From: an uncultured Clostridia bacterium
GTDB lineage: Bacteria > Bacillota > Clostridia > Christensenellales > Borkfalkiaceae
Assembly (NCBI GenBank): GCA_947624005.1
Contig: CANQHV010000011.1
Span: 1-35,234, forward strand
Length of the DNA stretch: 35,234 bases
Reading direction: 5' to 3'
The position numbers and the translations under genes were made by a program. The notes under the pieces were generated by a model. It saw nothing but the letters and a program-made list of their open reading frames with translations, made no database searches and had not been told where the DNA came from. Positions 3,586 through 35,070 of the stretch are shown here, piece after piece; the first letter of the stretch is position 1, and each line of letters starts with the position of its first letter.

Positions 3586-3602
3586 ATTTTCCCCTTTTTT
3601 GC

Positions 3603-3774
3603 GGTAAAAAAATAAGGTGTACTCCCGAAAGAGTACACCGCATGGTATCTCTTACGGTTACCACACCTTTTTCCAATGATCACATAAAAGTAATTATTAT
3701 TGTAAAAGAGATACACAATGCCGAGATTGTGCAACTTTTACGTGATTTATTCAATTGGAAAAAAATGTGGTAGC
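3603..3774 (-). promoter_or_regulatory. Structured leader RNA with terminator (copy 1), riboswitch-like
   Basis: Read on the minus strand from the predicted start near 3772, the RNA opens with GCUACCACAU and forms a long stem with the stretch ending GUGUGGUAACC (arms 3753-3774 and 3656-3678). Inside are a second stem (CACGUAAAAGU with ACUUUUAUGUG) and a hairpin, CACAAUCU-CGGC-AUUGUG. Bases 3716-3724 (GUAUCUCUU) are exactly complementary to 3645-3653 (AAGAGAUAC), which lies outside the long stem, so a pseudoknot is possible. The end is a 9-bp hairpin with loop UUUCGG (3616-3639) followed by UUAUUUUUUU, directly before the ribosome-binding site of the surface-protein gene. A second copy lies at 11788-11961. 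I do not recognise it as a known riboswitch or T-box class. The ligand is unknown. Confidence 0.75.
3605..3639 (-). terminator. Intrinsic terminator in the surface-protein leader
   Basis: Perfect 9-bp stem (arms 3616-3624 and 3631-3639), six-base loop, then a U-rich tract on the minus strand at 3605-3614. It sits between the promoter and the start codon, so it must be read through or prevented for the gene to be expressed. Confidence 0.8.
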
Positions 3775-3777
3775 TTT

Positions 3778-3806
3778 ACTATACCATAAAGCGTTGAAAA
3801 TGTCAA
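3778..3806 (-). promoter_or_regulatory. Sigma-A promoter of the surface-protein leader
   Basis: On the minus strand: TTGACA (3801-3806), 17-bp spacer, TATAGT (3778-3783). The predicted start falls within the AAAGCUACC that begins the structured leader. Confidence 0.85.
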
Positions 3807-4171
3807 CGGTTAATTTTTACGGCATAGAGCAAGCTTTTTTCAATTTAATGCCGCGCCGCCGTAAAGTGTTTTTATAAAAACATTTAGAGATGTTCGGTTG
3901 CTCCGTTGCAACGGAGCAACCGCCCGCGGGCGGTTCTATAAAATATTTGTTTCAATAATTTTACCACACATTGCGCAACGTTTCAATACTTTTGCGAAAA
4001 ATTTTCGAAATTTCGCGAAAATTTTTCGCAAAATTTTATTCCTTTTATCAAATTTTTTCCTTATCCTCCCCTAAAACCTCGTTTCTTTTCCCCCAAATTT
4101 TCTATCCCCCCTTTCTAAATTCCCACCCGCCGCGCGTTTACCAACGCGCGGCGGGTGGGATATATATCTGC
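3807..4171. other. Intergenic region with three palindromes, no gene
   Basis: No convincing coding sequence is visible. It holds a perfect 28-bp palindrome at 3895-3922 centred on GTTGCAAC, followed by a short CGCCCGCGGGCG palindrome. An AT-rich inverted repeat lies at 3990-4033 with perfect 18-bp arms (3990-4007 and 4016-4033), and a GC-rich inverted repeat at 4121-4160 with perfect 18-bp arms and a 4-base loop. The last lies just upstream of the consensus promoter at 4172. Confidence 0.6.
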
Positions 4172-4200
4172 TTGACAATATTCGGCATAATTATTATAAT
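4172..4200 (+). promoter_or_regulatory. Perfect consensus promoter of the 34-codon ORF
   Basis: TTGACA (4172-4177), exactly 17 bp, TATAAT (4195-4200). Both hexamers match the sigma-A consensus fully. The predicted RNA start is near 4207, at the left arm of the repeat that frames the locus. Confidence 0.9.
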
Positions 4201-4237
4201 ATAAGTAAGCAACAAGGGTTTCCCGAAGGCGGTTAAT

Positions 4238-4257
4238 CACGCCCCGTAAAGGGGGTG
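4238..4257 (+). promoter_or_regulatory. Hairpin sequestering the ribosome-binding site of the 34-codon ORF
   Basis: CACGCCCC (4238-4245) can pair with the GGGGGTG (4251-4257) of the Shine-Dalgarno across a short GTAAA loop, with one bulge. The SD lies about 7 bases before the ATG at 4265, so the mRNA would by default be poorly translated, as is usual for type I toxin mRNAs. Confidence 0.6.
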
Positions 4258-4264
4258 AAATTTT

Positions 4265-4369
4265 ATGAGGACACAGCTTATACTCTTTTTATTGAGCTTG
4301 CTTGATAAAGGATACATAGCCTCCGTCCGCGTTACAAAAGATAAAATCTTTTTAACCATAAAAAAATAA
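4265..4369 (+). CDS. Small hydrophobic/basic peptide, candidate type I toxin
   Basis: ATG at 4265 follows a strong AGGGGGTG ribosome site and a consensus promoter. The peptide has 34 residues: MRTQ, a hydrophobic block LILFLLSLL, then DKGY, an alternating hydrophobic/basic stretch (IASVRVTKDK) and the end IFLTIKK. The stop codon lies inside the left arm of the shared terminator. The hydrophobic block is only nine residues, shorter than a normal membrane helix, so membrane insertion like Fst or TxpA toxins is uncertain. Coding status is supported by the promoter, the SD and the paired antisense transcription unit, not by homology. The alternative is that the locus is a pair of regulatory RNAs and the ORF is incidental. 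Confidence 0.6.
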   Translation: MRTQLILFLLSLLDKGYIASVRVTKDKIFLTIKK

Positions 4370-4405
4370 CCGCCAGTGTTTAGCAGACCGTGGTGGTTAT
4401 TTTTT
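4361..4405. terminator. Shared bidirectional terminator of the convergent pair
   Basis: A-rich AAAAATAACCGCCA (4362-4375) pairs with TGGTGGTTATTTTT (4391-4404), one G-T pair included, around a 15-base loop. The flanking A-run and T-run make it work from both sides, ending the plus-strand mRNA and the opposing minus-strand RNA. Confidence 0.85.
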
Positions 4406-4447
4406 ATAGCTGCACGGGGCTAACCGTTTAGGGTTTGCCCTTGTTGT
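4361..4447 (-). ncRNA. Predicted antisense RNA (candidate antitoxin)
   Basis: A perfect minus-strand promoter (4454-4482) predicts a start near 4447; the RNA runs through the shared terminator, giving about 85 nt. Its 5' end resembles that of the opposing mRNA: both carry AACAAGGG, then GGUUA, then GCCCCGU. Because GCCCC is the strand that masks the mRNA's SD, this RNA can pair with the GGGGG of the SD. It is fully complementary to the mRNA through the terminator region. The arrangement matches par/fst and TxpA-RatA type I modules, in which toxin mRNA and antitoxin RNA converge on a terminator. Confidence 0.6.
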
Positions 4448-4453
4448 GATTTT

Positions 4454-4482
4454 ATTATATGCCTTTTTTTGACGTTTGTCAA
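4454..4482 (-). promoter_or_regulatory. Perfect consensus promoter of the antisense RNA
   Basis: On the minus strand: TTGACA (4477-4482), 17 bp, TATAAT (4454-4459). It faces the equally perfect promoter at 4172-4200. Confidence 0.9.
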
Positions 4483-4947
4483 TAGTTTGATTTAAAAAAT
4501 CGCCGACAAGCGTAAGGCTTATGAGCGCGCCCGCAGTTTGCGGGCACACGCACTCAACTGCCTCTTACCATCCGCCGCGCGCGTTGCGCGCGGCGGATGG
4601 AAAAATTTTTATATTAAAATAATATACAACGTGAACTTAAACAGAAACGGCGCAAACCGAAGTTCGCGCCGCCTCTATATGATAAGGGGGAAAATGATGA
4701 GTGTGTTAGCAACTTTATGTAAACGTTCCGTTTACAGTTACAATTATATACAAAAAATCTTAAATGTAAAACTTTTTACAAATTTTTTTGCGGCGGGCGG
4801 TAATTTTTGTCACGCAAACAATTTTTGTTAGGTTTTATCATATTATCATTTTTGCCGCCTTTAACGCTACAAAACGGCGCGAAAAGTCGCAAAAAACGGA
4901 AGCTTTCGGCGTTTACTCAACTTAAAATGTACGAGCGCGGCATTATG
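4483..4947. other. Intergenic region with hairpins, no firm gene
   Basis: A perfect 15-bp hairpin sits at 4568-4600 followed by AAAAATTTTT, and a smaller one near 4650-4672. A 45-codon frame starts at ATG 4694 after AAGGGGG and ends at 4831, but its composition looks random, so it is not called. The rest is AT-rich and featureless. Confidence 0.5.
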
Positions 4948-11769: not shown

Positions 11770-11787
11770 TCTTTCTCCTTCCGTGCG

Positions 11788-11961
11788 GTAAAAAAATAAG
11801 GTGTGTTCCCGAAAGAACACACCGCACAGTATCTCTCTCGGTTACCACACCACTACAACAATGAAAAACTTCTTGCTTGAAAAATTCAATTGTCAAGAGA
11901 TACACAATGCCAGATTGTGTATTTCCAAGCAATTTTATTCTTTTGTAGTAATGTGGTAGCT
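11788..11961 (-). promoter_or_regulatory. Structured leader RNA with terminator (copy 2), riboswitch-like
   Basis: On the minus strand the RNA starts near GCUACCACAU and again pairs this end with GUGUGGUAACC (11841-11851). The rest of the long stem differs in sequence from copy 1 but stays paired: ACUACAA with UUGUUGUAGU, and UUGCUUG with CAAGCAA. The hairpin CACAAUCU-GGC-AUUGUG is kept. GUAUCUCU (11896-11903) is complementary to AGAGAUAC (11829-11836) outside the stem. The terminator stem has compensatory changes relative to copy 1 (GUGUUC/GAACAC instead of GUACUC/GAGUAC). The changes that keep pairing argue for a functional RNA rather than a simple duplicated repeat. Confidence 0.75.
11790..11823 (-). 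terminator. Intrinsic terminator in the lipoprotein leader
   Basis: Nine-bp stem (11800-11808 and 11815-11823), loop UUUCGG, then UUAUUUUUUU on the minus strand, just before the AAGGAG of the lipoprotein gene. Confidence 0.8.
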
Positions 11962-11963
11962 AA

Positions 11964-11992
11964 AATATATCATAGCGGCGCGGAAATGTCAA
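11964..11992 (-). promoter_or_regulatory. Sigma-A promoter of the lipoprotein leader
   Basis: On the minus strand: TTGACA (11987-11992), 17 bp, TATATT (11964-11969); the start falls at the beginning of the structured leader, as in copy 1. Confidence 0.8.
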
Positions 11993-12032
11993 GGAATAAT
12001 CGGCTCGGGGCGGCGCGCGTTTTGCGGCGCAA

Positions 12033-34949: not shown

Positions 34950-34953
34950 GAAA

Positions 34954-35070
34954 TCCGGCAACTCCTTATCCTTGCGAGCGGTGTCCCGCTAACTACTTTC
35001 AGCAACTCAGAGCTTAACTTCTGTGTTCGGAATGAGAACAGGTGGGTCCTCTGCTTTATCGTCACCGGAA
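34954..35070 (-). rRNA. rrf: 5S ribosomal RNA
   Basis: The reverse complement begins TTCCGGTGACGATAAAGC, has the conserved CCACCTGTTCTCATTCCGAAC, CAGAAGTTAAGCTCTGAG and the late GCGGGACACCGCTCGC, and ends TGCCGGAT, which pairs with the 5' end. Length about 117 nt. It is the last gene of an rRNA operon whose 23S gene must lie beyond the right edge. Confidence 0.95.

Follow-up and report, generated by a model that had tools for sequence, protein, structure and literature searches.

A compact convergent locus in a Clostridia genome

What does a locus do when it holds two perfect promoters that face each other, with one short open reading frame (ORF) and one terminator between them? We study such a locus at positions 4172 to 4482 of the window, by which we mean the whole stretch of DNA analysed, 35,234 nucleotides from an uncultured Clostridia bacterium. 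An earlier note made from the letters alone had suggested a new type I toxin-antitoxin module, or else an RNA pair that controls a small peptide. The features of the locus are as follows.

4172-4200, + strand: RNA1 promoter, TTGACA-17-TATAAT, 12/12 consensus matches
4207-4405, + strand: RNA1, putative peptide mRNA, with ends placed by promoter and terminator
4211-4247, + strand: RNA1 leader with blocks in common sense with RNA2, by sequence match
4238-4257, + strand: hairpin masking the Shine-Dalgarno (SD) sequence, in predicted folds
4265-4369, + strand: ORF of a 34-aa peptide, family F1, by translation, selection and AlphaFold2 model
4360-4406, both strands: predicted shared bidirectional terminator, overlapping the ORF stop
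4360-4449, - strand: RNA2, putative antisense antitoxin RNA of ~90 nt, by covariance model and promoter
4417-4440, - strand: RNA2 5' hairpin GGGC.A.AACC/GGUU.A.GCCC, predicted and paired in the alignment
4482-4454, - strand: RNA2 promoter, TTGACA-17-TATAAT, 12/12 consensus matches
4215-4221 and 4430-4436, + strand: AGGGTTT direct repeat, present in the window copy, not conserved

The basic layout described earlier is borne out. Both promoters match the consensus at every position and their -10 elements are separated by 253 bp; a 2 kb scan finds 9 promoter-like sites where shuffles give 2.9. The 34-codon ORF (4265-4369), which encodes MRTQLILFLLSLLDKGYIASVRVTKDKIFLTIKK, and its strong SD (GGGGGTG, 4251-4257) hold as well, and in predicted folds of the window RNA only, the SD is covered by CACGCCCC at 4238-4245. 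The terminator does overlap the ORF stop: its 5' arm codes for the last codons (Lys-Lys-stop), its loop is very variable among copies, and the 83-nt stretch around it folds with z = -5.77. On the other strand, RNA2 scores 73.7 bits with our covariance model R1, in whose training set it was included. At the sequence level, the locus has the two parts that make a type I system, a peptide gene and an antisense RNA gene that overlaps it and has a promoter of its own.

A selected peptide with no family match above cut-off

The F1 ORF is under purifying selection. Over 13 close loci pN/pS is 0.22, compared to 1.07 and 2.22 in the out-of-frame controls, and the differences fall on the three codon positions as 383/192/702; pooled over the 37 members of 34 residues, pN/pS is 0.54. 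The AlphaFold2 model (46 sequences; mean pLDDT 91.5, pTM 0.54) consists of a helix at residues 3-15 and a hairpin formed by residues 20-23 and 28-31. In hydropathy, the window peptide reaches a best 17-residue mean of 1.76; the F1 family spans 0.96-2.32 and 30 wider partners of RNA2 span 1.64-3.51.

That the peptide may represent a new family, as had been proposed, agrees with our searches: 15 F1 members compared to Pfam, NCBIfam, PHROGs and PADLOC gave no family above cut-off, with only weak single-member rows in Pfam and NCBIfam (best E 0.0088), and the window peptide matches no Pfam family at E up to 1, including the Fst/Ldr hydrophobic domain and Hol_Tox (PF16935). One candidate origin, ribosomal protein uS8, is not supported, the likeness being at the level of fold and not significant. 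For residues ~28-67 of uS8 the best Foldseek E is 0.78, with none significant, and the profile probability is 35%; a PDB sequence search returned no ribosomal chain, and nine uS8 proteins rank from 3 to 202 among 705 scored ORFs. Because a uS8 search of the window's own genome gave no match, these comparisons use the proteins of relatives (8 in the alignment, 9 in the ranking). The likeness is probably just a common small motif.

RNA2, a putative antisense RNA, is conserved and absent from Rfam 15

How widely does this unit occur? The genome that holds the window has the whole unit with F1 three more times, twice as a tandem pair, which makes four F1 copies in total, and one further copy with a different peptide (F2). 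Long GC-rich palindromes, seen as self-matches at 4121-4160 and 4565-4603, flank the module in the window, and a similar palindrome adjoins another copy in the same genome (C5). Of the 93 genus genomes, 27 have matches to a profile of 15 F1 peptides and the other 66 (some of them incomplete) have none; in the order, 6 of 297 sampled genomes have matches. The F1 loci used for the promoter count number 59, from 64 sites minus 2 spurious long ORFs, 2 fragments and 1 site cut by a contig end. When the best site in the flank is taken, with no fixed position, every one of the 59 loci has an RNA2 promoter that agrees with the consensus at 11 or 12 positions, and 57 have a sense promoter with a score of at least 9. 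RNA2 itself ends at most 30 nt from the stop at all 58 F1 peptide matches in the genus, a few of which are fragments; most of these 58 RNA2s were in the training set of the model, so that the promoters give the more independent count.

The model R1 was built from 50 F1-locus RNA2s with the terminator as its sole helix. Across 50 sequences the two helices of the 5' hairpin are paired in 92.5% and 87.8% of cells, and the terminator in 98%, where slid controls give 26-53%. Nine of 18 base pairs change on both sides, 6 of those in the terminator. R1 has matches in 30 of the 93 genus genomes and in 20 of the 297 order genomes (13 of 125 genera). A wider covariance model adds RNA2s opposite other peptides. 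With a limit of E <= 0.001 for each genome, it has matches in 94 of 391 class, 22 of 297 order and 31 of 398 phylum genomes, in samples that partly overlap and contain training genomes. Rfam has no family at gathering score at this locus (BsrG reaches 19.3 bits with 55 needed), a permissive threshold returned chance-level rows alone, and 19 other loci matched RNase P and a tRNA and nothing else. The RNA2 family is absent from Rfam 15, and it occurs in sampled genomes of Clostridia and other Bacillota.

With a broader DNA pattern, the records named are Clostridia or Clostridiales MAGs (28 stretches). The window copy has no match in phages nor, for one pattern, in viral contigs; compared to plasmids it gave 3 short matches, and the 2 inspected both have RNA2. 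The record named Monoglobus pectinilyticus plasmid 18 carries four RNA2s in tandem, and the Lachnospira eligens ATCC 27750 plasmid carries one; the gene table for these two records, which is incomplete, has no entries at the RNA2 places. Four to five RNA2 matches follow one another in tandem at L281 1113-2273, G525 C1 2362169-2363733 and G1118 C1 1811041-1812139.

Different peptides stand opposite RNA2

Although R1 was trained on RNA2s of F1 loci alone, it also found RNA2 opposite peptides of three other kinds, which we call F2, F3 and F4. For these non-F1 partners, whose RNA2s were outside the training set, the usual distance between the stop and the end of RNA2 is 6 nt. F2, with 15 intact members in the genus, is a Leu-rich helix with the typical ending IEYIAIKRxKK, modelled by AlphaFold2 as a single helix (pLDDT 93.8). 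Three F2 peptides have no match above cut-off in Pfam (including Hol_Tox, PF16935) or NCBIfam, and the sense promoter scores below 10 in 4 of the 15 intact loci. A relation between F1 and F2 was considered and dropped, as profile comparison gave no match, and for this reason we treat them as separate families, which is not proof that they are. Two broken F2 copies, L092 580-668 (G043 C39) with a frameshift and L168 744-831 (G126 C17) with a stop, retain both promoters and RNA2.

F3 partners, for example MVTYESLFLIGTFIVAVISLVIEITKKK, score above the Pfam cut-off for Hol_Tox: three distinct peptides reach 31.9, 33.1 and 24.5 bits, the cut-off being 23.3. F4 comprises single hydrophobic helices of 22-25 aa, with the inner ATG chosen wherever the script gave a longer start. 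Among the 20 R1-positive order genomes, 13 have an SD-led ORF opposite RNA2, one of them (G242) identified by eye after the script had missed it. The matches in the other seven (G053, G068, G208, G268, G295, G304, G350; R1 E 6.7e-5 to 9e-4) are probably false or decayed. Of 43 loci read from the class and phylum searches, 30 carry an SD-led ORF with a distance of 3-6 nt between its stop and the end of RNA2; the script gave 31, of which L248, with its stop at 23, is spurious, and L240, L241 and L268 were kept out of the 43 because coordinates near contig ends are unsafe. Two modules read in the Monoglobus record encode MEYVYIIIFMIVFITLIESIKK. At L140 1501-1585 (G154) a partner unlike a membrane peptide, MTEIEKLAEILAEYLLKIYEAICNLDKK, faces an RNA2 match.

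The endings of these peptides call for care. Among the class and phylum loci, endings in K or R are partly selected, as the ORF script favoured ORFs that end in K or R. Most F1 and F2 peptides close with Lys-Lys, probably because the U-tract of the antitoxin reads AAA AAA TAA on the other strand.

The peptide side appears to be lost while RNA2 is retained

Which side of the unit is found without the other? The genus has 96 RNA2 rows, 58 paired with an F1 match and 38 not. The 38 comprise 4 opposite-strand shadows, 15 intact F2 loci, 15 loci where the peptide side is lost, 2 cut by contig ends and 2 that are probably false. Loss in the 15 peptide-less loci is by deletion, frameshift or stop, often with just the last codons left; of the 13 that were scored, 12 keep 11 or 12 matches in the RNA2 promoter. 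(One peptide-less locus, G032 C195, has an N run upstream, although an in-frame stop closes its remnant too.) In the opposite direction, the F1-profile search of the genus, with 58 matches, found no F1 peptide without RNA2. Decay looks one-sided, with the peptide lost and RNA2 retained, a pattern that one would predict for a peptide that does harm unless RNA2 is there. The earlier note had held that related genomes with promoters and terminator but no ORF would leave only an RNA pair; that arrangement does occur, in 15 loci, but what they hold are ORF remnants.

These data bear on the alternative that survives best, namely that an antisense RNA pair controls a small functional peptide that is not toxic, such as a regulator or a stress peptide. 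Purifying selection on F1, its confidently predicted helix and hairpin, and the lack of a toxin family match for F1 speak for such a peptide. A toxin fits better with the loss of the peptide side where RNA2 is kept, with the several and tandem copies and patchy spread (27/93), and with the Hol_Tox peptides found on the same RNA2, so that we regard a harmless peptide as unlikely.

Leaders, terminator loops and pairing

How might the two RNAs recognize each other? The earlier note had reported matching 5' blocks in both RNAs and concluded that the antisense RNA carries the strand that pairs with the SD. The blocks are there: RNA1 (+) has AACAAGGG at 4211-4218, GGTTA at 4231-4235 and GCCCCGT at 4241-4247, and RNA2 (-) has AACAAGGG at 4445-4438, GGTTA at 4425-4421 and GCCCCGT at 4420-4414. 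The pairing does not follow from them, for the 5' leaders are identical in sense and not complementary. A same-sense leader match of at least 8 nt is found in 50 of 56 F1 loci (3% in shuffles) and in 41 of 44 other ORF-bearing loci (7% in shuffles), the ORFs of the 44 being picked by hand, with a fixed stretch upstream of the terminator as the RNA1 side; these shuffle tests leave relatedness among loci in place. The leader sequence itself varies between loci, and leaders of the same locus are more alike than others (mean rank 0.871, 0 of 20000 permutations, kinship not removed). Candidate explanations for the same-sense leader are strand-swapped hairpins, a common binding partner, gene conversion or pairing with a terminator arm. 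As a source of specificity, pairing between leader and RNA2 was rejected: RNA1 leaders are predicted to pair with their own RNA2 no better than with those of other loci (mean ranks 0.54 and 0.585 over 55 loci).

The earlier note had also pointed out a direct repeat like those of par loci. AGGGTTT is indeed repeated in the window, with the second copy at 4430-4436 and the first corrected to 4215-4221, but over the 56 F1 loci the longest direct match is at shuffle level (mean 5.66 nt vs 5.47), and par-type direct repeats are at that level in the 44 other loci as well.

The leader motif CGGUUA is complementary to UAACCG, the 5' arm of the terminator in RNA2, and the two could pair in 94.8% of cells (slid controls 14-56%). 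One would look for such pairing if the locus were a protein-coding gene under attenuator control, in which promoter-like DNA and a symmetric terminator yield the antisense transcript as a side effect. The pairing shows no two-sided change, however, RNA2 itself possesses a separate 5' hairpin, and its promoter has 11 or 12 matches in 59/59 F1 loci and in 12/13 peptide-less loci, all of which makes an attenuator very improbable. Least credible of all is a mobile or selfish MITE-like repeat, with promoters in inverted ends and an incidental ORF, since, for all that several copies per genome, some in tandem, and ends similar in inverted orientation recall one, the ends have only short blocks in common at variable spacing, the F1 ORF is selected, and the layout is kept although copies differ widely.

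Full complementarity between RNA1 and RNA2 is confined to the terminator and stop region, and this draws attention to the terminator loop. In 12 close loci, the loop has an identity of 0.56, compared to 0.72 at third codon positions and 0.88-1.00 in the terminator arms, in the leader of RNA1 and in the 5' domain of RNA2; because the RNA2 spacer outside the RNA1 overlap is equally variable (0.49), the variability of the loop may be mere lack of constraint. The U-turn motif YUNR is present in 45 of 50 RNA1 loops (33.5 in shuffles) and in 41 of 50 RNA2 loops (30.2 in shuffles). From loops that are variable and rich in U-turns we infer kissing at the loops as the probable first contact. On the RNA1 side, the longest U run of the terminator is at most 4 in 25 of 56 loci, and for this reason RNA1 may end elsewhere.

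Comparison with known systems

TxpA/RatA and BsrG/SR4 of Bacillus subtilis are pairs of convergent RNAs that overlap at their 3' ends. The RNAs predicted here overlap in the same way, and a relative has Hol_Tox peptides on the same type of RNA2. The locus differs in that it has no Rfam match at gathering score and in that the window peptide is not a Hol_Tox.

The likeness to par of pAD1 and the Fst-Ldr systems extends further. These (PMC7472228) share with the locus convergent promoters, a peptide of 33-34 aa, a bidirectional terminator with complementary loops, a U-turn motif and an SD-masking stem, the terminator and the stem being predicted here; in par, pairing starts by kissing at the terminator loops (PMC7472228). 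They also have direct repeats, DRa and DRb, which give complementary 5' regions (PMC7472228) and which are not conserved here, where the two leaders are instead identical in sense and the window peptide has no Pfam family. Because the direct repeats are not conserved, we call the locus par-like in layout and not a member of par.

For the sharing of one antitoxin among toxins, the closest likeness is the Panacea domain, a single antitoxin unit joined to many different toxins (PMC8832971). Panacea is a protein (PMC8832971), whereas in the present case an RNA gene that overlaps the putative toxin gene would play the shared part. In the open-access titles and abstract openings searched, no RNA2 family and no exchange of toxins on one RNA antitoxin is described.

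A probable type I module with a shared RNA antitoxin

Taken together, we judge the locus to be a chromosomal type I toxin-antitoxin module, with a probability of roughly 0.8. The type I layout put forward in the earlier note gains support from selection on the ORF, RNA2 at 58/58 F1 matches, the Hol_Tox partners and the loss of peptides where RNA2 is kept. From the sequence comparisons, the best reading of RNA2 is an antitoxin family whose toxins have been exchanged, here with a non-classical peptide. In such a module RNA1 would code for the 34-aa peptide with its ribosome site held in a hairpin, and RNA2, made from the facing promoter, would act as the antitoxin. Pairing would probably start between the two terminator loops, whose locus-specific sequences may limit cross-talk, and RNA2 would then block translation of RNA1 or mark it for decay. 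Elsewhere, RNA2 is mostly partnered by membrane peptides that belong to known type I toxins or are typical of such toxins; within the genus, the RNA2 unit carries F1 (predicted helix and hairpin) and F2 (predicted amphipathic helix).

A bolder version is tentative, and we would not yet bet on it: RNA2 may be a promiscuous antisense RNA chassis across Bacillota that has recombined with unrelated toxins, with F1 and F2 acting on an intracellular target and the same-sense 5' leaders held by selection, for example for strand-swapped hairpins or a common binding partner, as a regulatory principle that sets them apart from par with its complementary repeats.

Searches for type I toxins usually start from their hydrophobic peptide. 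Here it is the putative antitoxin RNA that can be searched for, and through it one reaches peptides without a family model in many Clostridia and on the Monoglobus and Lachnospira plasmid records. This raises two testable questions, how an RNA antitoxin changes its toxin and whether such type I toxins act other than at the membrane.

Neighbouring features in the window

Two further features lie outside the module. Two long ORFs, of 1103 aa and 420 aa, are each preceded by a leader-like stretch, at 3588-3814 (-) and 11772-12000 (-); the two window copies are 71% identical, and the stretch occurs at 10 places in the genome, the query itself included. For the first copy (3588-3814), Rfam returned nothing with E up to 0.1, and the stretch is possibly an uncatalogued leader RNA. 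Near the end of the window, a 5S rRNA gene is found at 34953-35069 (-).
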